Shown here: positions 38,957 to 49,875 of the stretch, piece by piece
Position numbering within the stretch: position 1 is the stretch's first letter
Layout of the letters: each line of letters opens with the position of its first letter
Assembly: GCF_000788395.1 (NCBI RefSeq)
Contig: NZ_CP009889.1
Location: forward strand, 1,116,001-1,180,000
From: Pseudoalteromonas piratica
GTDB lineage: Bacteria > Pseudomonadota > Gammaproteobacteria > Enterobacterales > Alteromonadaceae
Direction of reading: 5' to 3'
Length of the DNA stretch: 64,000 nt
Translations under genes and position numbers: made by a program
Notes under the pieces: generated by a model
Database searches by the model: none
What the model was told of the DNA's origin: nothing
What the model saw: the letters and a program-made list of their open reading frames with translations, nothing else

Positions 38957-41482
38957 ATGAAACAGATTCTCTCTCGTTCATTGATGCTATTAACCCCGCT
39001 GCTGGCGCTAAGCGCCTGTGGTACGCATCACGCTGATACCAGCAAAAGTGAAAACAGCGCCACAACACAAACTGATTATGTGCAAAACCCAGCGCAATTT
39101 GTGAACCCGTTTATTGGCACCAAAGGCCCATTTAACCATCGCCAAGCCGCAAATGTGGTACCGGGTGCTGTAAAACCGTTTGGTATGTTTAACTTTGGCC
39201 CTGAGCACGCGTATACCAAAGAGCTGATGGCTGAAAGTGAAGGCATTAGTAAACGCATCAACGAAGACAATGTGCGCATTCCCGTTTCGCCCGGCGGCTA
39301 TAACTGGCAAGCAACGCGCTTAAAAGGCTTTTCATTTACTCGTTTATCGGGCACGGGATGTTTAGGTGCATCAGGTGATGTGCCAGTGCTGCCTTTTAAT
39401 CAAGCGATTAAACACTCCCCTGCCAGCGATAAAATTAATGCCTACTATGGCGCTAATTTTAGCCACGACGATGAAACGGCTATTCCAGGTTATTACCAAG
39501 TAGGACTCGATTCAGGAATAGATGTGCGTTTAGCGGCCACCGACCGCTCTGGTATTGCCGAATTTACGTTTGCGTCAAAAGAGCAGGCAAAACTGATATT
39601 TAGAACGGCTTACTCGCAACTGGGCAGTGGCGATGCATTCACCAAAGTAGATGCCGCCAAAGGCGAAGTCACAGGTTATGTCACAAGTGGTAACTTCTGT
39701 GGCTACCTTGGCGAATACAACCGTCGCGATTACTACACACTGCATTTTGTTGCCAAAATTGATGCACCCATTACCGGCAGTGGCGCGTATGTCGATGACA
39801 CAGTTTCGCCAAATGCAACCTCAAGTAAAGGTGGTATGGGCTATGGCGATAAGGGCGTGCCAGAATGGGGCAAAGGCTCTGGCCTTTGGGTTGATTTAGA
39901 CGTAAACGCTAACCAGCCTGTTACCATGCGTGTAGGCATTTCTTACGTGAGTCTTGAAAATGCCCGTGAAAACCTTGAAAAAGAGCAGGCAAGCCAAAGC
40001 TTTGCTCAAGTAAAAGACAGCGCCTATGCCGCATGGAATGATGCCCTTGGTCGCGTAAAAGTAAAATCAAACGACAGTGATTTATTAACCACCTTTTATA
40101 CGGCGCTCTTTCACAGCCAATTCCACCCTAATATCTTTAGTGATGTAAACGGTGAGTACCGCGGTTTTGACCAACAAGTTCATACTGTTAGCGCAAACCA
40201 AACAGTGCAATATGCCAATTTTTCTGGCTGGGATGTCTATCGCTCACAGTTGCAGTTAATTAGCTTAACCCACCCAAATGTAGCAAGTGATATTGCCCAA
40301 TCGCTGTTTAATCAAGCCAATCAGTTTAACGGCATTTGGGATAGATGGACGCACAACAATGGCCCAACAGGGGTAATGAGCGGTGACCCATCAACCATTG
40401 CGATTGCCAACTTTAAAGCCTTTGGCGCCGATAAATTTGATGTAGCTGGTGCTTATCAATCGCTTTACAAAGCAGCCACAGAGCCAACCGAATATGATTT
40501 ATCAAATGTCGGCTGCCCAGTATTTTGTCGCGGTCAAAAACCATCACTCGATGAATGGCTAAGCCTAAATTACTTATCAGATCAATCTAATTCGTGGGAA
40601 GGTGCCAGCGAAACACTCGAGCAAGTATCCGCTGATTTTGCACTTTCGCAGCTGGCAGCACGCCTTGGCAAAACTAAACACAGCCAAACGCTACTTGAAC
40701 GTTCAAGCTACTGGAAAAACCTTTATAACCCAAAAGCCACTGAGCAGTTAGGTTATATTCAAGGGCGCAATCAAGACGGCAGCTGGAAAGAAAAATTCGA
40801 CCCATTTAGCGGCCACCTGTTTGTTGAAGGCAGCCCAGCGCAATATTTATGGATGCTGCCTTTTGACGGTCAAGGCCTAAACGAATTACTGGGTGGCGAT
40901 AAGGTAATGGCATCACGCTTAGATAACCACTTCCGTAAGCCTGATGGTAGCTGGGTGCTGTATCGCGATTCAGCCGAATATGCTGATGTTTCAAACCAGC
41001 CATCAATTGCTACTCCGTGGATGTATTTGTATACCGGTAAAGCCTATAAAACACAGCAAACTGTGCGCGAAACCATGAAACAACTTTGGCATAACACGGT
41101 ATCTGGTATTCCAGGGCAAGATGATTTAGGGCAAATGTCGTCATGGTATGTGTTCTCAGCACTTGGCATGTATCCGTTTTATCCAGGTCGCGCCGATATG
41201 GTGCTTTCAAGTCCTGCATTTGAAAAAGCAAAAATTGGCAATATTAGCATCAGTGCACCAAACGCAAGCGCTGATCACATTTACATTGATACGCTAAAAG
41301 TAAACGGCCAACCATCTATGCAAAGCTGGATTAACGAAAACCATGTAAACGCGCCACAGCACCTTGAATTTAACTTGAGTACTACGCCAAATAAAGTGTT
41401 TGGCCAAGCTGAAGAGCATCGTCCGCCGTCGTTTTCAACATCATCAACAGTTGCAACTAAGCTTGTTGGAGATAAACCCTAA
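38957..41482 (+). CDS. GH92-family mannosidase-like lipoprotein with diverged motifs
   Basis: The 841-aa enzyme begins with a lipoprotein signal (lipobox LSAC). It keeps the GH92 scaffold, the catalytic Glu (FVEGSPAQY) and GQDDLGQMSSWY. However, the family opening motif is altered (GTKGPFNHRQAANVVPGAVKP), and GNEPSHH of the first enzyme is SNQPSIA (around 40991-41011). The altered residues lie in normally conserved active-site segments, so the enzyme probably has another linkage or substrate, for example phosphomannosyl or capped mannosides. It starts 20 bases after the first GH92 gene and its stop overlaps the transporter start (TAATG), so all are coupled. Confidence 0.9.
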   Translation: MKQILSRSLMLLTPLLALSACGTHHADTSKSENSATTQTDYVQNPAQFVNPFIGTKGPFNHRQAANVVPGAVKPFGMFNFGPEHAYTKELMAESEGISKRINEDNVRIPVSPGGYNWQATRLKGFSFTRLSGTGCLGASGDVPVLPFNQAIKHSPASDKINAYYGANFSHDDETAIPGYYQVGLDSGIDVRLAATDRSGIAEFTFASKEQAKLIFRTAYSQLGSGDAFTKVDAAKGEVTGYVTSGNFCGYLGEYNRRDYYTLHFVAKIDAPITGSGAYVDDTVSPNATSSKGGMGYGDKGVPEWGKGSGLWVDLDVNANQPVTMRVGISYVSLENARENLEKEQASQSFAQVKDSAYAAWNDALGRVKVKSNDSDLLTTFYTALFHSQFHPNIFSDVNGEYRGFDQQVHTVSANQTVQYANFSGWDVYRSQLQLISLTHPNVASDIAQSLFNQANQFNGIWDRWTHNNGPTGVMSGDPSTIAIANFKAFGADKFDVAGAYQSLYKAATEPTEYDLSNVGCPVFCRGQKPSLDEWLSLNYLSDQSNSWEGASETLEQVSADFALSQLAARLGKTKHSQTLLERSSYWKNLYNPKATEQLGYIQGRNQDGSWKEKFDPFSGHLFVEGSPAQYLWMLPFDGQGLNELLGGDKVMASRLDNHFRKPDGSWVLYRDSAEYADVSNQPSIATPWMYLYTGKAYKTQQTVRETMKQLWHNTVSGIPGQDDLGQMSSWYVFSALGMYPFYPGRADMVLSSPAFEKAKIGNISISAPNASADHIYIDTLKVNGQPSMQSWINENHVNAPQHLEFNLSTTPNKVFGQAEEHRPPSFSTSSTVATKLVGDKP

Positions 41483-42690
41483 TGGCCAAGCAAATTAATC
41501 AAACCATGGCGTTTTACGCCATGACCAGTTTGTTTTTTATCTGGGGTTTTATTACCGCACTGAATGATATTTTAATCCCATTTTTAAAAGCCGAGTTTTC
41601 GCTTAGTTATACTCAAGCCATGCTAGTGCAGTTTTGCTTTTTTGGCGCTTACTTTTTAGTGTCACCGCTGGCAGGACGCGTGGTTGCAAAGTTTGGCTAT
41701 CGCAATGGTGTGTTTATTGGGTTATCAACCCTTGCCCTTGGCTGTCTGCTGTTTATTCCGGCAGCCAGCATTAAAGAATATGCGCTATTTTTAGCAGCAC
41801 TCTTTGTACTTGCAGGCGGTATTACCGTGCTGCAAGTATCAGCAAACCCTTATGTAAACTGTTTGGGTGAGCAAAAACATGCTGCAAGTCGCTTAAATCT
41901 AGCACAAGCAATTAACTCCCTTGGTCATACCGCAGGGCCATTGTTTGGTACTTACTTTATTTTGTCAGCGACTTCGCAAACTGCCGGCGCCGAACAAGTA
42001 CAACTGCCGTATTTTTTAATCGCCCTTGCTGCGATAACCATAGCCTGCTCCTTTAAGTTTATTGAATTACCAAAACTTGATTTTGAAGAGCAAACTTCTG
42101 CGCAATCTAAAGAGTCAATTTGGCAACATAAGCACCTTGTTTTAGGCGCACTTGGCATCTTTTTGTATGTAGGTGCTGAAGTGTCAATTGGCGGCTTTTT
42201 AGTAAACTATTTTGAATCACCTGAAATCGGTGGCTTAACCACCGGACAGGCTGGTCATATGGTCGCCTACTATTGGGGTGGTGCGATGATTGGTCGCTTT
42301 ATTGGCTCTGCGTTAATGCGTCAATTCTCGCCAAGTTATGTACTCGCCTTCAATGCCATTATGGCGGTTGTGCTGTTAATTGTTACGGTATTTAGCAGCG
42401 GCAAAATCGCGATGTGGAGCGTACTGGCTGTTGGCTTTTTTAACTCAATTATGTTCCCAACCATCTTTAGTTTAGCTATTCGCGGTTTAGGGCAACTTAC
42501 TGCAAAAGGTTCGGGGCTACTGTGCCAAGCTATTGTGGGTGGTGCAGTATTCCCATTAATCCAAGCGGTTGTTGCCGATGCATTTTCAGTGCAGCTTAGC
42601 TTTTTAGTGCCCGTATTGGCGTATCTGTATATTGTGTTTTTTGCCATTAGCCAGCACCGCGTTAGCGCTCAAAAGGAGTTACCAGCATGA
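41482..42690 (+). CDS. Sugar:H+ symporter of the FucP/GluP family (MFS), probable mannose permease
   Basis: The 402-aa protein has 12 membrane helices with family motifs: a first helix FIWGFITALNDILIP, and AGGITVLQVSANPYVN, which are characteristic of FucP/GluP-type symporters. The N of NDILIPFLK and D/N in helix 4 are conserved binding residues in this family. In the operon context it should carry mannose released by the mannosidases across the inner membrane. It starts within the stop codon of the second GH92 gene and its own stop overlaps the kinase start by four bases, strong coupling. Confidence 0.9.
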   Translation: MAKQINQTMAFYAMTSLFFIWGFITALNDILIPFLKAEFSLSYTQAMLVQFCFFGAYFLVSPLAGRVVAKFGYRNGVFIGLSTLALGCLLFIPAASIKEYALFLAALFVLAGGITVLQVSANPYVNCLGEQKHAASRLNLAQAINSLGHTAGPLFGTYFILSATSQTAGAEQVQLPYFLIALAAITIACSFKFIELPKLDFEEQTSAQSKESIWQHKHLVLGALGIFLYVGAEVSIGGFLVNYFESPEIGGLTTGQAGHMVAYYWGGAMIGRFIGSALMRQFSPSYVLAFNAIMAVVLLIVTVFSSGKIAMWSVLAVGFFNSIMFPTIFSLAIRGLGQLTAKGSGLLCQAIVGGAVFPLIQAVVADAFSVQLSFLVPVLAYLYIVFFAISQHRVSAQKELPA

Positions 42691-43679
42691 GCAAGGTGAT
42701 CTGTTACGGTGAAGCCTTGATTGATTTTCTACAAATTAATCAACAATCAGAAGATGGCATTCGTTTATCGGATTACCGCCAGTACCCAGGCGGTGCACCG
42801 GCAAACGCAGCGGTTGCCCTTGCCAAACTCGGTGGCAAATCGCATTTTGTTGGGCAAGTAGGTGATGATCAATTTGGCCATTTTTTAATAAACAGCCTTC
42901 GTCATTATGGTGTAAATACCGACTGTACGCTTATTCATAAACTTGCCCCAACACCACTTGCATTTGTGCATTTAGATGAGCACGGTGATCGCAGCTTTAC
43001 CTTTATGCGAAAAGACAGTGCTGATTTAAAACTGCGCCCAGATGAAATCAAATCGCAGTGGTTTAAAGACGCTTCGCTAGTTCATTTTTGCAGTAATACA
43101 CTCACTGAAACAAACGCTGTAAACACCACAAAAACAGTACTGGAACACGCAAGCCACAACAATTTAACCATCTGTTTTGATGTTAATTTACGCGCTAATT
43201 TATGGCCAAATTCAGCACTTAAGATCCCGCTTATAAATGAATTTGTTGAAAAAGCAGATGTCGTTAAATTTGCCCGCGAAGAGTTCGAACTGCTTTGTCA
43301 AAATAAGCCAGAAGATTATATAAATCGATGCTTTAACAGCAATTGTGAGTTGCTACTTATCACAAATGGTGGTGACAACATTGAATATATAACCAAACAT
43401 TGCCGAGGCAGCATTAGCCCAGCCAAAGCAGAAGTAATCGATACCACCGCCGGTGGTGATGGTTTTATCGGTGCTATTTTGTATTTATTAAGTGAACGCA
43501 TCACCCTAGACGCACTTTTAAACAATGAAAACGCGCTTAAAAGCGCCATCGCATTTGCCAGTTGTGCCGGTGCGCTTGCCGTAAGTCGTCAAGGCGCATT
43601 CCCTGCACTGCCCTCATTAAACGAGATAGACACCCTTTTTAACCAGCAATTTAGCGCCCTCACGGGCGCATTTTTTTAG
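42687..43679 (+). CDS. PfkB-family sugar kinase, probable fructokinase
   Basis: The 330-aa enzyme shows the ribokinase/PfkB signatures: an N-terminal GEALIDFL and the YPGGAPANAAVALAKLGG motif, and the C-terminal DTTAGGDGFIGAILY with the catalytic-base Asp. It resembles ScrK-type fructokinases in length and motif spacing. In this operon it would phosphorylate the fructose formed from mannose by the neighbouring isomerase to fructose 6-phosphate, which enters glycolysis. Substrate (fructose versus mannose) is inferred from context. The start overlaps the transporter stop (ATGA). Confidence 0.9.
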   Translation: MSKVICYGEALIDFLQINQQSEDGIRLSDYRQYPGGAPANAAVALAKLGGKSHFVGQVGDDQFGHFLINSLRHYGVNTDCTLIHKLAPTPLAFVHLDEHGDRSFTFMRKDSADLKLRPDEIKSQWFKDASLVHFCSNTLTETNAVNTTKTVLEHASHNNLTICFDVNLRANLWPNSALKIPLINEFVEKADVVKFAREEFELLCQNKPEDYINRCFNSNCELLLITNGGDNIEYITKHCRGSISPAKAEVIDTTAGGDGFIGAILYLLSERITLDALLNNENALKSAIAFASCAGALAVSRQGAFPALPSLNEIDTLFNQQFSALTGAFF

Positions 43680-43688
43680 AGAACGCAC

Positions 43689-44882
43689 GTGAACTTTTAT
43701 AACGCTGATTTTTTAATACATCACAGCCAGTCGATTGTTAACTTTTATACCGAGCGCGCTGTCGATAGCAACCTTGGTGGCTATTACCAAAACTATTTAG
43801 ACGATGGCACCTTGTTTAATACAGGGTTTCGTCAACTAGTGAGCAGTACACGCATGGTAATCAACTTTTGCCGCGCGGCTAAGCATTTTAAAAACAATGA
43901 ATACTTAGCCCTTGCAAAACATGGTCTTGATTACATTGAAGCCCATCATTGGATTGCAAATAGCAAACAATACGCGTGGACACTTGACGATAACCAACCT
44001 AAGGATATGACCCAGCAAGCTTATGGTTATGCTTTTGTGTTACTTTGCTACGCCCATTGTTACAAAGCAGGCGTGATTTCATCTGATAGAAAGATTAATG
44101 AAACCTTTGAACTGCTCGAATCACGTTTTTGGCAAGCCAATGAAGGCATTTACGCCGATACCATTTACGCAAATGGTGAACTATGTGAATACCGCGGCCA
44201 AAATGCCAATATGCATATTTGCGAAGCGCTTATTAGTGCCTATAGTGCAACCAATGAGCGCCATTATTTAAAACGAGCAGAGCACCTTGCTGAGCGTTTT
44301 TGTTTTGAATTATCAGCGCATAGTAATGGCTTAGTGTACGAGCACTTTACGCCTGAGTTATTGCCTGATTTTGATTACAACAAAGACGATGCTAAAAACC
44401 TCTATCGCCCGTGGGGGTTTCAACCAGGTCATCAAACTGAATGGGCCAAATTATTACTACAGATTAACTATTTTGATGAGAAACCAAAATTTGTTGCAAA
44501 GGCGCAGCACTTGTTTGATGTTGCCTTTGCTAACGCATGGGATAACGCCCATGGCGGTTTAGTGTATGGCTTTGATACGCATTACGCCACCTGCGACAGC
44601 GACAAATACTTTTGGGTACAAGCTGAAAGCTTTGCAGCCGCTGCATTACTTTTTGATGCAACACAAAACAATACTTACTTAACCCATTACAACGCGCTTT
44701 GGCAGTATTGCTGGCAGTACTTTGTCGATCATGACCATGGCGCGTGGTATCGGGTATTAAAAGATAATAATCAAAAGTACAGTGATAAAAAAAGCGAAGC
44801 AGGCGCTAAGTGCGACTATCACACGATCGGCGCGTGTTTCGATGTATTAGAATTTACTAAACACCCACTTTCAACCAATTAA
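43689..44882 (+). CDS. AGE-family epimerase/isomerase, probable mannose isomerase
   Basis: The 397-aa (alpha/alpha)6-barrel protein carries the family catalytic histidines: FQPGHQTEWAKLLLQI (His and Glu) and, near the C-terminus, YHTIGACFDVLEF. These fit N-acylglucosamine 2-epimerase, mannose isomerase and sulfoquinovose isomerase families; the context favours aldose-ketose isomerisation of free mannose to fructose. It is the last gene of the operon, starting with GTG ten bases after the kinase, with AGAGAA upstream. A hairpin at 44906-44928 follows it. No phosphomannose isomerase gene is in the window, which agrees with a free-sugar route. Confidence 0.9.
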   Translation: MNFYNADFLIHHSQSIVNFYTERAVDSNLGGYYQNYLDDGTLFNTGFRQLVSSTRMVINFCRAAKHFKNNEYLALAKHGLDYIEAHHWIANSKQYAWTLDDNQPKDMTQQAYGYAFVLLCYAHCYKAGVISSDRKINETFELLESRFWQANEGIYADTIYANGELCEYRGQNANMHICEALISAYSATNERHYLKRAEHLAERFCFELSAHSNGLVYEHFTPELLPDFDYNKDDAKNLYRPWGFQPGHQTEWAKLLLQINYFDEKPKFVAKAQHLFDVAFANAWDNAHGGLVYGFDTHYATCDSDKYFWVQAESFAAAALLFDATQNNTYLTHYNALWQYCWQYFVDHDHGAWYRVLKDNNQKYSDKKSEAGAKCDYHTIGACFDVLEFTKHPLSTN

Positions 44883-44928: not shown

Positions 44929-45056
44929 ATTTGCTACAAAAGTAAACTTCATACTTTAATCTTAGTGTAATAAGGCGTGATACCCGCCTGAAAGTTGCTG
45001 CCCTACTATTAACATCAAAGTTACGGTTTATCGGGTCATTCACATTGCAATACGCT

Positions 45057-45509
45057 ATGCATTTAAAGTCATTAGTTAAACAAAATATTTCAGGGCAGTG
45101 GCAATTTTTTGTCAGTTCGTTATTCGATACCTTGGAATCATCATATCCTGCAGATGAACGAATGACGTTTTTAACTAAAATGGGCAAGCATGCAAGCCGT
45201 TCTCTGGAGATTAATCCCGAGATGACGTTGGTACAACTAAACGAGCGTATAAACCAGTTTTGGTTTGAGCGCCGTTGGGGTCACTGCAATATATTTGAAA
45301 AAGACAATGGCTTAGTCATTGAACATTATATTTCACCACTTTGCGCCATTTTAAAAGATGAACACCAAGCGTATGGTGATGCGTTTTTAACAGGGCTTTA
45401 TTCTGAGTGGCTTAAAAACGCCAGTGCCCCCTATCAAGGCATTATTAAGAAGGTAAGTGCTGACAACATTGACGATATTGCCGTACGCTTAAGTTATCAC
45501 GTACTCTAG
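45057..45509 (+). CDS. BcsD-like (cellulose synthase subunit D-like) protein
   Basis: The 150-aa protein follows the pattern of cellulose synthase subunit D (PF03500): an opening WQFFVSSLFDTLESSYPADE, the Trp/Glu-containing centre WFERRWGHCNIFEKDNGLVI, an FLTGLYSEWLKN segment, and the C-terminal IDDIAVRLSYHVL. BcsD forms an octameric ring that guides glucan chains in Komagataeibacter. No bcsA or other cellulose gene is in the window, so it belongs to another system or is a displaced accessory. An ATG at 45057 is the most likely start, though no clear ribosome site precedes it; TTG at 45045 is an alternative. The 53-aa gene follows immediately. The homology is by eye and would need profile confirmation. 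Confidence 0.6.
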   Translation: MHLKSLVKQNISGQWQFFVSSLFDTLESSYPADERMTFLTKMGKHASRSLEINPEMTLVQLNERINQFWFERRWGHCNIFEKDNGLVIEHYISPLCAILKDEHQAYGDAFLTGLYSEWLKNASAPYQGIIKKVSADNIDDIAVRLSYHVL

Positions 45510-45517
45510 GAGAGGCT

Positions 45518-45679
45518 ATGACAACTCAATATACCCGTTGTAACAATGTGGTCCACGTGACATTTGCTTCCAAGCAAGTTCAAACAACCCCTGAGGCTAA
45601 AAATAACGAAACTCTGGCTGAGATGTTTAAACGTCATAAAGTTGTGGTACCCTCTGAGCTGATTTTTAAATACAAATAA
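45518..45679 (+). CDS. 53-aa unknown protein coupled to BcsD-like gene
   Basis: An ATG at 45518 opens a 53-codon frame ending at 45679. AGGAG lies five bases upstream and overlaps the stop codon of the BcsD-like gene, so translation is coupled. The product begins MTTQYTRCNNVVHVTF and ends VVVPSELIFKYK; it is hydrophilic, with one Cys and a basic tail (FKRHK). It has no membrane helix or signal peptide and no family I know. Position suggests a small partner of the BcsD-like protein, for example a peptide that sits in its ring. Confidence 0.6.
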   Translation: MTTQYTRCNNVVHVTFASKQVQTTPEAKNNETLAEMFKRHKVVVPSELIFKYK

Positions 45680-45769
45680 AGTAAATAAAATCATATAGCT
45701 GCCGATAATAATAAACGTTTTAAAAACGTAACTAATACTCTCCTCAAAAATAAAATAGGAATTCATAAA

Positions 45770-46237
45770 ATGGATAATAATCCTACGGTTAAAATCATCG
45801 TTGACTTCGCCGGTATTTTTCAAAACATCGACCAGAAAGTAGTATATTGTAAAAATTACTTTGCATTAGTCGGTGATAAGTTTATTTCTTACGGTACTGA
45901 GAATGATCCTAAGGAAATGATTACGATTACAGAGCCAGCGGAACCATCTTTACCACCTACTATTACGCTAAAAGGTGACAGTAGCATTTTCGATTTCAAA
46001 GTTTTTGATTTAGCGACAGGAAATGAAGCAAAAAACACATTTTTAGATTGGTTTCATGACAGTGCATTGAAACCTGTAAAGTTAGGCGTAAACAGTAATG
46101 TTACTAGCTATCAACAATTAAGTTCAGGTACGCTTGATGTAACTATGATGTTGGTTGCACAAAACCCGACTGATAAACAAGAATATACGATTGGGTGGGA
46201 TCCGATTATTGATGTGGATGATGTTAATCCACAATAA
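45770..46237 (+). CDS. 155-aa unknown beta-rich protein
   Basis: The protein is soluble and predicted beta-rich, with acidic stretches (IIDVDDVNPQ at the C-terminus). It has no signal peptide. I recognise no family; the end, YTIGWDPIIDVDD, faintly recalls AidA/PixA inclusion-body proteins, but the similarity is too weak to assign. The ATG at 45770 has AGGA nine bases upstream. It is separated from the 53-aa gene by 90 bases and its 3' end overlaps the convergent kinase gene by 14 bases, a tight arrangement that suggests a long-standing neighbourhood. Function unknown. Confidence 0.55.
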   Translation: MDNNPTVKIIVDFAGIFQNIDQKVVYCKNYFALVGDKFISYGTENDPKEMITITEPAEPSLPPTITLKGDSSIFDFKVFDLATGNEAKNTFLDWFHDSALKPVKLGVNSNVTSYQQLSSGTLDVTMMLVAQNPTDKQEYTIGWDPIIDVDDVNPQ

Positions 46238-48854
46238 TTGACCTGAGCTCACGCTCATTCCAATTTTTCCAAAGAGGAGATGTTATCGCTTCCTCTTTGG
46301 GGTACCCTTTTTTGATGGCCAGTTTTAGCTTTTTCACTGCACGCTCCGATTCATCTAATGCGTCATACGCTTGGGCTGCGAGATAAAATTCCGTTGCATT
46401 TTCTTTGTGCGATATTGAGTCCAGTATTTTCATCGCAGCTGCTTTTTCCCCGATGCGTGCTTTATAATAAGCCCAAGCAAGTTTAGCTCGGCTGTTTTGT
46501 TTATTAATTGAAAATACTTTTTCCGTTAAATCAGCCGCTTGTTTATACGTAGCATTTGTCTCAGGATGCTTAATTAACCAATACGAATCTGCCAAATTGC
46601 CCCAACTCATATAATCGTTTTTATCCAATTTGATGGCTTGTTTATACGCCGAAATGGCATCTTGATATTGCCCTAAAATAAAATGAAAGCCACCAATATT
46701 TGAAAAGCCTCTAGCAGTTGGATTCAATCTATTACCTTCTTTCGCATACGCTAATGCTGATTTTAATTCTCCTTTACCATAGTAACTTGCAGAAAGACCT
46801 ATAAAAGCACTTTTGTTTTTTGGTGTTAAATCAATAAGTTGCTGGTAGACTAGTATTGCTTTATTGTATTGTGCAGTTCGATAGTATAAACGCCCTAACT
46901 GATTAAGCCCTTTCCAATGATTAGGAACAATCTTAAGTGCTGCCTTATAACTTTGCTCAGCTAACGTATTTTCTTTTAGCTGCTGGTAGGCACGCGCCAA
47001 TTCAAAATGCAGGTATTCATTTTCGGGATTTTCATTCACTAGAGCTTTTAACAATTTACTCGCTTTTTCAGCCTCGCCACGTCTAAGCGCAAGCGTATGT
47101 GACAAATAACGGACTTGTGTGTGTGTTGGTTCGATTTTGGCAAGCTGGTTTATGGTTTGTTCATACTGGTTCAACCATTGCTCGTCTTTAGTATTGTGAA
47201 ATTTATTTAAGTATGTGGCTGCTAGATTCACATAGGCATCAACATAAAGTTCGTCTAAGTCAATGGCTTGGTTAAACTGTTCGATGGCATTTTCTATGTA
47301 GTTTGCTTGATCAGAGCGAAACGTATAACCAATTGCCGCAATATAGTGTTTATAAGCACCATCAAACTCGGTGCCTTTACTTGCCATATTACTTTTTGGC
47401 CAATTCAGCATGGTAATGGCTTTTTCAAATACCGCTTGGTTTGAGGCAAATAAGTCTTTTACATTCACCTTAAATTGCTGCTGCTTTAGTGCAACACCTG
47501 AGGCACCGTCTATCAATTCTAAATTAATCAAACGCTGAGAGCCTAAATGCTGAATACTGCCCGTTAATACTAAATCGGCACCATAACGAGAATAAACATC
47601 GCTAACGGTTAAATTGTTCAGTTTGGCTACTTCGGCGCTTGGAATAACCCAGCTATTGGTTTTTTCTCGACCCACTTTACCGAGTTCAGTACTCAACGTT
47701 ACCGCTAAGCCTTGGCTAAACAGCTGTACTTGCGGGTCGTCATTGATGTTTTGTAATGGCAATACTGCAATACGTTTATTCTCACTGATGCGCTTTTCGA
47801 GTATTTGCTGATTGCTAGGCGGGAATAAAATAGGCTGTAAAAGCACTGCCATTACACCTAATAACATCGCCGATATAGTCACTTTTTGCCACGGTGCGCG
47901 TCGCTGCCACCAGTTTGGCTTTTGCACTAAGGCTTGGTTTAAATCGGTAAATGCATCGATTAGATCTGAAAGGAGTGGTCTTTTTGAAGGCTCAACCAGC
48001 AGCAAGTTTTGAATAAGGGTGACTAACGCTTCAGGTAATTGGGTGTCTTTATCAGCTAAATTTTTGGCTTCACCTGTTGTGATTTGTGCTTTTATAACGT
48101 CAAGTGATTTACCATCAAAGGCTTTATCATCCGAAAACAATTCAAACAGCACGGCGCCAAGGGCAAACAAATCGCTTTCTTTACTAGCGTTTTGCCCTAA
48201 ATACAGTTCAGGGGCTAAATAAGCAGGCGAACCTATTGTGGCTGCCTGTGATTCACCACCTAGTACATGAGATAAACCAAAATCGAGTACTTTTAGCTGG
48301 TTATGTATATCAAACATAATGTTATCGGGCTTGATATCACAGTGTAAAATGGCGTTTTGATGCGCATATTCAATGGCATTACACAGCTGCAGTGCAATAC
48401 TGGCTTTTTCTTTTAATGGTATCTCTGTGGCGAGTTTTGCTTTTAGGCTGTCGCCGTCAACCCATTCCATAACGATGGCAAGTTGCTCATCGTTTTGAAT
48501 AACTTCATGGATGGTAACAATATTTGGGTGGCTTAATTTACTGGCAAGTTTGGCTTCTTGCACTAAATCACTTTGGTTATCCGTGTTCGGAACAAGTTTA
48601 AGCGCAACAATGCGATCTAACAGGGGATCTTTAGCTTTTAAAATGGTGGCAAAGCCACCTGAAACCGTGCTTAAAACCTCAAAGTCACTGAGATTACGCT
48701 GAGTAACATGCGCTGCTTCTTTTACTTCATCACAGCCTGGTGTAATAACTTGTGTTATTTCTAAATCGGCGTCAATGCTAGAGTCGTTACAGTGGGTACA
48801 TTTAGCGCTCATAGCATCTAATAAACTGCCGCAGTGATGGCATAATTTACTCAT
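46224..48854 (-). CDS. Membrane Ser/Thr protein kinase with zinc ribbon, sensor-like domain and TPRs
   Basis: The 876-aa protein starts with a zinc-ribbon-like CHHCGSLLDAMSAKCTHC (residues 5-22) and a Hanks-type kinase domain (about 55-310: VSGGFATILKA glycine loop, K in VALKL, catalytic HCDIKPDN, DFG, APE). A membrane helix lies at about 325-345. The outside part begins KRIAVLPLQNIND, a TolB/FlgO-like domain, then eight or more TPRs (about 500-830). All catalytic residues are present. It is expected to sense a periplasmic ligand and phosphorylate a cytoplasmic target. The divergently placed FHA protein is the obvious candidate. Confidence 0.9.
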   Translation of the reverse strand: MSKLCHHCGSLLDAMSAKCTHCNDSSIDADLEITQVITPGCDEVKEAAHVTQRNLSDFEVLSTVSGGFATILKAKDPLLDRIVALKLVPNTDNQSDLVQEAKLASKLSHPNIVTIHEVIQNDEQLAIVMEWVDGDSLKAKLATEIPLKEKASIALQLCNAIEYAHQNAILHCDIKPDNIMFDIHNQLKVLDFGLSHVLGGESQAATIGSPAYLAPELYLGQNASKESDLFALGAVLFELFSDDKAFDGKSLDVIKAQITTGEAKNLADKDTQLPEALVTLIQNLLLVEPSKRPLLSDLIDAFTDLNQALVQKPNWWQRRAPWQKVTISAMLLGVMAVLLQPILFPPSNQQILEKRISENKRIAVLPLQNINDDPQVQLFSQGLAVTLSTELGKVGREKTNSWVIPSAEVAKLNNLTVSDVYSRYGADLVLTGSIQHLGSQRLINLELIDGASGVALKQQQFKVNVKDLFASNQAVFEKAITMLNWPKSNMASKGTEFDGAYKHYIAAIGYTFRSDQANYIENAIEQFNQAIDLDELYVDAYVNLAATYLNKFHNTKDEQWLNQYEQTINQLAKIEPTHTQVRYLSHTLALRRGEAEKASKLLKALVNENPENEYLHFELARAYQQLKENTLAEQSYKAALKIVPNHWKGLNQLGRLYYRTAQYNKAILVYQQLIDLTPKNKSAFIGLSASYYGKGELKSALAYAKEGNRLNPTARGFSNIGGFHFILGQYQDAISAYKQAIKLDKNDYMSWGNLADSYWLIKHPETNATYKQAADLTEKVFSINKQNSRAKLAWAYYKARIGEKAAAMKILDSISHKENATEFYLAAQAYDALDESERAVKKLKLAIKKGYPKEEAITSPLWKNWNERELRSIIVD

Positions 48855-48951
48855 AGTGAGAAGCTTTTGTTATTCTTGATTGTAATTAAGCAATGTTACA
48901 TCACATAATAACGGCAAAAGATTTCAATACAAGCGTTGATATGAGGCAATC

Positions 48952-49875
48952 ATGGGTACATTTACGAATTCGGTTACAGAGCAAACAATTCAGCTTCGCG
49001 ACCATCATATTGTGGGCCGTCACCCTGAAACTGCACATACTTTAATTAAAGAAAGTGCGGTCTCGCGTAGCCATTGTTTAATTGAGTGGCAACAAGGCAA
49101 TTGGTACTTACAAGATATCAGTGCAAACGGTACTTTTGTTAATGGCAAACGCGTTGCAAAAAACATCAAACACGAATTAAAACTAAATGATGTTGTACAG
49201 TTTGGTGATAGTGAAAGCGTGAAGTGGCAGGTTTCCAATTTAGCGCAGCCATGCCCATTTTTAAAAAGCACCAACGAGAGTAAGAATGACCTTGCCCTTA
49301 ACCACCACGTGAACATGCTTAATTGCGAAAACCAAGAACAAATGATCAGCCAAACGCTCTCTGGCCAATGGTTACTTGAGCAAGAAGGTAACATCAAAGC
49401 GCTTCAAAATGGCGACTTAGTGCGTTATCAGGGTAATCAGTACATTTTAATTGCGCCAAGCGATATTGATGCCACGCAAGAATGTGAGCAAACAGCAGAA
49501 CATGCCATTGATGTTAAATTTACAGTAAGCCAAAACGAAGAACATGTTGGTGTTTTACTCAATGTAGATGGCCAAGCCATTGACCTTGAAGACCGAACCC
49601 ATCATTACCTAGTACTATTGCTCGCACGTAAATACCTTGAAGATAAACAAAATAACGTGCCTGAAACAGAAGCGGGTTGGCTTGATAAAAGCCTATTAAT
49701 GCGCCAAACGCGCATGGAAGAAACCCACATCAATACACAGTTTTACCGTTTTAGAAAACAACTGCATACGGCTGCAAAAAAGTTCAATTTAGATGTAGAT
49801 ATTATTGCCAGACGCCGCGGTGAAATCCGTTTGCAATGTTCAACAATTAATATTTTACAAAGCCAAGCAGCATAA
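48952..49875 (+). CDS. FHA domain protein with C-terminal winged-helix-like domain
   Basis: The 307-aa protein has an FHA domain (residues 15-85: IVGRHPE, SAVSRSHCLIEW, ISANGTFVNGKRV), which binds phosphothreonine. A middle region is of unknown fold. The C-terminal 110 residues include THHYLVLLLARKYLED and LLMRQTRMEETHINTQFYRF, which resemble OmpR-type winged helices. This suggests a transcription factor switched by phosphopeptides. It lies divergent to the Ser/Thr kinase across 97 bases and starts at an ATG seven bases after GAGG. It is probably the output protein of the kinase; its promoters are unknown. Confidence 0.85.
   Translation: MGTFTNSVTEQTIQLRDHHIVGRHPETAHTLIKESAVSRSHCLIEWQQGNWYLQDISANGTFVNGKRVAKNIKHELKLNDVVQFGDSESVKWQVSNLAQPCPFLKSTNESKNDLALNHHVNMLNCENQEQMISQTLSGQWLLEQEGNIKALQNGDLVRYQGNQYILIAPSDIDATQECEQTAEHAIDVKFTVSQNEEHVGVLLNVDGQAIDLEDRTHHYLVLLLARKYLEDKQNNVPETEAGWLDKSLLMRQTRMEETHINTQFYRFRKQLHTAAKKFNLDVDIIARRRGEIRLQCSTINILQSQAA

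Follow-up and report, generated by a model that had tools for sequence, protein, structure and literature searches.

A receptor-kinase gene block of Pseudoalteromonas piratica that pairs a putative TPR sensor with a predicted PixA/DP-EP-fold protein and a BcsD-like protein

A 64,000-nucleotide stretch of the Pseudoalteromonas piratica genome (contig NZ_CP009889.1, positions 1,116,001 to 1,180,000; hereafter the window) carries a block of five genes encoding a BcsD-like protein, a basic 53-aa protein (p53), an acidic 155-aa protein (p155), a Ser/Thr receptor kinase with tetratricopeptide repeats (TPRs) and a protein with a forkhead-associated (FHA) domain. A sequence-only reading had placed five open reading frames (ORFs) here. 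Their coordinates bear this out, with the start of bcsD shifted from the ATG at 45057 to a TTG at 45045, which is preferred because the alignment column of the ATG holds Ser in P0002 and P0003. Since gene order is the same across strains and the ratio of nonsynonymous to synonymous divergence (dN/dS) lies between 0 and 0.48 in every gene and every pair compared, we conclude that the five ORFs are genuine genes that evolve under purifying selection and stay together by more than chance. We further conclude that a small partner of DP-EP/PixA fold encoded beside a TPR receptor is a recurring theme. Our favoured reading, to which we give a little less than an even chance, is that the block forms a membrane receptor module in which p155 would be the standing partner and the bcsD-p53-p155 unit would be among the outputs, probably as a cytosolic assembly.

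The genome (G000) has two contigs and 4.8 Mb in total, the window being part of contig 2. The genus was sampled with 108 genomes, and the block was compared in four strains, namely that of the window, G062, G096 and G099; these are the 4/108 genomes with p155. Co-occurrence in other genomes had been proposed as a check, and the gene order was identical in all four strains as far as the sequence runs, the contig of G096 ending inside bcsD. A scan of named genomes returned two loci with p155, in Pseudoalteromonas sp. P1-9 and G4. The dN/dS values draw on four genomes, or three for bcsD (0.00-0.05 in three pairs). The five genes thought to form one set do co-occur, but the core consists of the kinase, the FHA protein and p155; bcsD is rare, with PF03500 matches in 3/108 genomes (G096 additionally holds a bcsD 3' end at its contig edge) against FHA-protein matches in 77/108. 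The bcsD and 53-aa genes are a lineage-specific add-on to the module. Beyond bcsD, G099 carries other genes (480 aa and 704 aa, by eye of PepSY type and TonB receptor look) and retains the block; on the FHA side a DUF2306 gene comes next in G062 and G099 and was not found there in G096.

The kinase combines two zinc-ribbon-like CxxC pairs with a Pkinase domain (167.6 bits); its single hydrophobic helix is at residue 325, and the TPRs come after this helix. This is the pattern of a Hanks-type receptor, in which the helix would span the membrane and the TPR half would be the sensor. The architecture assigned from sequence was correct in these elements, but its TolB-like domain reached only sub-threshold scores (FlgO E 0.018, TolB_N E 0.14). 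The divergently encoded FHA protein has a clear FHA domain (65.6 bits) with the GR, SRSH and NG residues through which FHA domains bind phosphothreonine; the winged helix once ascribed to it lacks any helix-turn-helix match in the window protein. We propose that the presumably extracytoplasmic TPR half would sense a signal and the presumably cytoplasmic kinase domain would phosphorylate a partner. The FHA protein would then read phosphothreonine and alter transcription, the most likely targets being the bcsD-p53-p155 unit and its own divergent promoter. Anti-phage defence kinases (MAD6, PD-T4-6) gave no match beyond the kinase domain: the best stretches fell within residues 45-338 in the 25 families listed out of 35, MAD6 scored 128.7 bits against a cut-off of 460, and the PADLOC matches of the kinase were the kinase-domain ones. 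PADLOC also linked the FHA protein weakly to a specificity subunit (E 0.0015) and bcsD weakly to JetB (E 0.0011).

Other kinase loci vary on this plan. L046, L047 and L058 have another kinase type near their FHA genes, which is longer (1290-1327 aa in complete copies); at L058 it adjoins proteins of an HPKF-motif family also found close to the L053 FHA gene. At L048:4082-6904 the kinase frame is broken into two ORFs, next to an FHA gene and a WDPII protein that looks intact, a possible case of decay or of sequencing error. At L069:3017-5467 an 816-aa protein ends in a DP-EP-like tail (DDPRLGIGKP), and its gene shares a tail-to-tail overlap with that of the kinase; it looks like a partner domain joined onto a large protein.

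Support for p155 as a standing partner comes from its place at the TPR end of the kinase gene and from the repetition of this arrangement with proteins of the same fold class. A family that we call the C2 proteins, with the same fold and a sequence unlike p155, adjoins the 3' end of a TPR-kinase gene in 30/30 loci scanned. The locus L130:5003-6738 differs in that a TPR kinase has a closely spaced pair of C2-type genes next to it, both on one strand and with no FHA gene nearby; only one of the pair abuts the kinase. Canonical DP-EP proteins (PF08985) occur in 42/108 genus genomes at E 0.01, 38 of them above the cut-off. Among the DP-EP loci returned, the gene immediately upstream, on the same strand, encodes a TPR protein in 30/30 cases from the genus, and a TPR protein likewise precedes the DP-EP gene in 28/29 from other genera of the family, L171 being the exception; L125-L129, L134 and L166-L194 are DP-EP loci of this survey. 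Where full length was read, this TPR protein had 1082-1084 aa (6/6 loci); Trans_reg_C, nSTAND1 and TPR domains were present in 2/2 scanned whole, and a hydrophobic helix separated nSTAND1 from TPR in 3/3. A class-wide PF08985 search gave 0/274, and its controls were also without a match, so that this number is no evidence of absence. Because DP-EP genes follow proteins that, where scanned whole, are of winged-helix/nSTAND1/transmembrane/TPR type, and C2 and p155 adjoin TPR kinases, we conclude that a transmembrane-TPR half and a DP-EP-fold partner are common to receptors of two different designs, kinase/FHA and winged-helix/STAND. We found no description of this pairing among the open-licence papers listed by our searches, as judged by title and the start of the abstract, most subscription journals lying outside that scope.

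The sequence-only reading had called both small proteins unknowns. For p53 this stands, with no Pfam match at E 0.1 and no NCBIfam match, although 37/53 columns are invariant in the four strains. For p155, structure prediction and fold comparison point to a beta-sandwich of PixA/MakD/DP-EP type. The protein has an isoelectric point of 4.25, with 22 acidic residues and no Arg, and no signal peptide or export signal; it is probably cytosolic. PF08985 matched none of the six p155 members and nothing in G000, PF12306 (PixA) gave no match in the six at E up to 10 (HMMER filters drop most weak matches), and a viral fold library held nothing under E 0.001. The sole weak profile link (hhalign) to p155 was the WDPII protein of L048 (P 1.3e-4, probability 54%). 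Database searches returned five p155 clusters, three BcsD-like clusters and four p53 clusters, the last 75-100% identical and one of them the window's own.

The main competing explanation, unlikely in our judgement, is that the DP-EP/PixA-fold protein acts on the TPR receptor as a ligand or as an inhibitor and is cut at, or exposes, its Asp-Pro tail, the TPRs recognising the protein or the tail. Its repeated occurrence beside TPR receptors of two effector types would suit such a role, as would the C-terminal Asp-Pro, invariant in 6/6 p155, 9/9 C2 and 12/12 DP-EP rows. In the structures of SO1698, a DP-EP protein, the aligned chain ends at 116 in wild type, Y26F, K98A, P115A and Q118A (119-residue chains) and continues to 123-124 in D37A, S114A, D116A and P117A (128-residue chains), which fits cleavage between Asp116 and Pro117. 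SO1698 is said to cleave itself, which is consistent with these lengths. Against this reading, the residues concerned are unevenly kept: the D37 place is Gly in 12/12 DP-EP rows (p155 has an invariant Asp36 whose correspondence to D37 was judged by eye), and the S114 place is Gly (Gly142) in p155, with Ser kept in DP-EP and C2 rows. The lack of a signal peptide on p155 likewise speaks against a ligand of an outside domain.

The variation within the block bears on the same question. In pairs with G062, the TPR half of the kinase is 44-47% identical (dS, the synonymous divergence, 1.7-2.4) and the remainder of the protein 90-95% in the same pairs. Between G062 and G099, dS is 0.06 in the FHA gene, 0.07 in p53 and 0.09 in bcsD, but 1.53 in p155 and 1.72 in the TPR half, and the nucleotide profile along the block presents p155 and the TPR region as two adjacent variable segments with conserved flanks. 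We looked for co-variation of p155 bodies with TPR alleles and rejected it: the window and G062 have p155 bodies 96% identical but TPRs 47%, while G096 and G099 have TPRs 87% identical but p155 bodies 45%. The two segments are recombination hot spots that swap independently, which counts against the ligand reading. The segment after the Asp-Pro behaves otherwise, agreeing at 8-9/11 places where TPR identity is 77-87% (three pairs) and at 4-5/8 where it is 44-47% (three pairs). This would favour tail recognition, but mere DNA adjacency can explain why the tail travels with the TPR side, and only four strains are compared. A wider proposal, less probable again, is that DP-EP/PixA-fold proteins are cognate ligands, or tethered-peptide donors through the Asp-Pro tail, of bacterial transmembrane TPR receptors of both kinase and STAND type; they would make up a receptor-ligand family not described before, in which recombination diversifies the genes of TPRs and ligands, with the ligand here mounted on a BcsD scaffold.

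The first gene belongs to the BcsD family, as had been proposed: it scores 60.8 bits against a PF03500 cut-off of 23 and matches three solved BcsDs (8pkd, and 8poc and 8pog at E 0.002-0.004). It differs from the bcsD of cellulose secretion operons in its surroundings. The gene, at C2:1161045 (C1 and C2 in coordinates denoting contigs), has no bcs gene adjacent and is grouped with p53 and p155, p53 following 8 nt past bcsD and p155 another 90 nt on; BcsB lies at C1:1775355 and C2:481491. Both BcsB loci have neighbouring ORFs of fitting size, BcsB being the one profile scanned there. The second (L117, C2:481491-483272) is on the smaller contig and scores lower, and BcsB matches of similar score occur in G096 and G014.

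An explanation that we consider just as unlikely as the ligand is that the BcsD-like protein assists the chromosomal cellulose synthase from an unlinked locus, the cluster regulating the form of cellulose. BcsB is present in 4/4 block-bearing genomes, with two copies in G000 and G096, and in genus g45 the PF03500 genes lie ~4.6 kb from BcsB in 3/3 genomes. Yet BcsB occurs in 45/108 genus genomes, 42 of which lack a PF03500 match, two g45 BcsDs that were compared with the window protein share just 22-25% identity with it, and bcsD keeps its position with p53, p155 and the kinase. A class-wide PF03500 search gave 2/369, one being G000. The earlier picture of BcsD around glucan may therefore not apply, and a cellulose role is not the most economical reading. 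Since this lineage has gained a BcsD protein, presumably ring-forming, together with a putative 53-aa adaptor, the output of the receptor module is probably a protein assembly rather than cellulose itself, in which BcsD would be the scaffold, p53 a linker or adaptor and p155 the cargo. In another family of the class, a PF03500 gene (L135:1357-2552) is followed by a proline-rich 208-aa ORF, by eye perhaps a BcsH-like partner.

Two further explanations fare worse. By analogy with Bnr1, a Burkholderia PixA-family protein proposed as an acidic DNA mimic in the available text of PMC9060813, p155 might titrate the FHA protein or a nucleoid protein; the predicted fold class and the acidity of p155 fit, but acidity by itself is common, and we regard this as improbable. 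That the genes are neighbours by chance inheritance, without joint function, is very improbable: the block has been seen in one Pseudoalteromonas lineage only and bcsD and FHA are little diverged between some strains (dS 0.06-0.11), but between the window and the other strains dS reaches ~1.0-1.6 in bcsD, p53 and FHA with the order still kept, and in G099 the upstream flank of bcsD is a different one and the block is still there.

Several observations weigh against a receptor module with p155 as its standing partner. Direct contact between p155 and the TPRs is not obvious, because p155 lacks an export signal and the TPRs should be outside; p155 bodies and TPR alleles also segregate independently, and the second C2 copy in L130 stands apart from the kinase. 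The models are moderate (mean predicted local distance difference test, pLDDT, 76 and 71; best matches at a TM-score of ~0.5), with one of five p155 models at pLDDT 32, and profile comparison by hhalign joins neither p155 with C2 or DP-EP nor C2 with DP-EP. At the regulatory end, 13/24 FHA loci have no C1 kinase nearby, the best C-terminal helix-turn-helix match in relatives of the FHA protein is a sub-threshold Sigma70_r4_2 (E 0.007), and no shared operator was found. The BcsB genes in the genome leave room for a cellulose role of BcsD.

One operator candidate, the inverted repeat GTAA-N10-TTAC in the kinase/FHA gap, was rejected because GTAAT-N7..9-ATTAC matches at 9/10 or better in 12 places of the 64-kb window and the other divergent gaps read lack the repeat in that form. 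Promoter and terminator scans gave sites no more numerous than in shuffles.

Among known systems, PknH-EmbR of Mycobacterium is similar in joining a membrane Ser/Thr kinase to an FHA-bearing regulator, and EmbR (2fez) is among the matches of the window FHA region. EmbR has known DNA-binding and BTAD domains; to our knowledge, no TPR receptor, PixA/DP-EP-fold partner or BcsD belongs to that system. The SO1698/DP-EP family (PF08985, DUF1888) has the fold class of p155 and the conserved C-terminal Asp-Pro, with C2 nearest to SO1698; p155 differs in lacking a sequence match and in having Gly-Trp where DP-EP has Ser-Pro before Asp-Pro. The winged-helix/nSTAND1/TPR proteins that precede DP-EP genes presumably resemble STAND TPR regulators of the MalT/AfsR kind, from which they differ by a predicted transmembrane helix between nSTAND1 and TPR and by the DP-EP partner. 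The PixA/AidA inclusion proteins and MakC/MakD have the fold predicted for p155, which itself lacks a PF12306 match, and unlike for p155 no receptor kinase partner is described for MakC/MakD in the available text of PMC11484084. Our results place DP-EP/DUF1888 and PixA/MakCD, both of them fold families that are poorly understood, in a context as partners of TPR receptors in this bacterial family, and the pairing makes their function directly testable. They also name a possible partner for FHA-linked receptor kinases of Gram-negatives and provide an example of a BcsD protein outside cellulose operons.

Table 1. Features of the five-gene block (window positions)
Feature	Position	Strand	Basis
BcsD-like protein, orphan PF03500 member, 154 aa	45045..45509	+	PF03500 E 1.7e-16; PDB 8pkd E 2.1e-12
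p53, basic 53-aa protein	45518..45679	+	8 nt past bcsD; AGGAG-type ribosome site in front
p155, acidic 155-aa protein, invariant C-terminal GWDP	45770..46237	+	predicted PixA/MakD/DP-EP-type beta-sandwich
p155/kinase gene overlap, 14 nt, tail-to-tail	46224..46237	.	ORF coordinates
Ser/Thr receptor kinase, 876 aa	46224..48854	-	Pfam, hydropathy
Hypervariable TPR half of kinase, residues ~500-876, predicted outside membrane	46227..47357	-	pairwise identity, nucleotide profile
Divergent kinase/FHA intergenic region	48855..48951	.	alignment: well conserved, 4 strains
FHA-domain protein, 307 aa, possible C-terminal DNA-binding domain	48952..49875	+	PF00498 E 5.5e-18

Near FHA or kinase genes elsewhere (L057:6662-6889, L069:9585-9743, L131:7266-7448) we noted small peptides with GG-type leader-like sequences, by eye possible precursors of bacteriocins or of ribosomally synthesised and post-translationally modified peptides. 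Upstream of the block in the window (41482-44882) lie genes for a sugar transporter of the major facilitator superfamily, a PfkB kinase and an N-acetylglucosamine 2-epimerase-type isomerase, which accompany the block in G062 and are not adjacent to it in G099.
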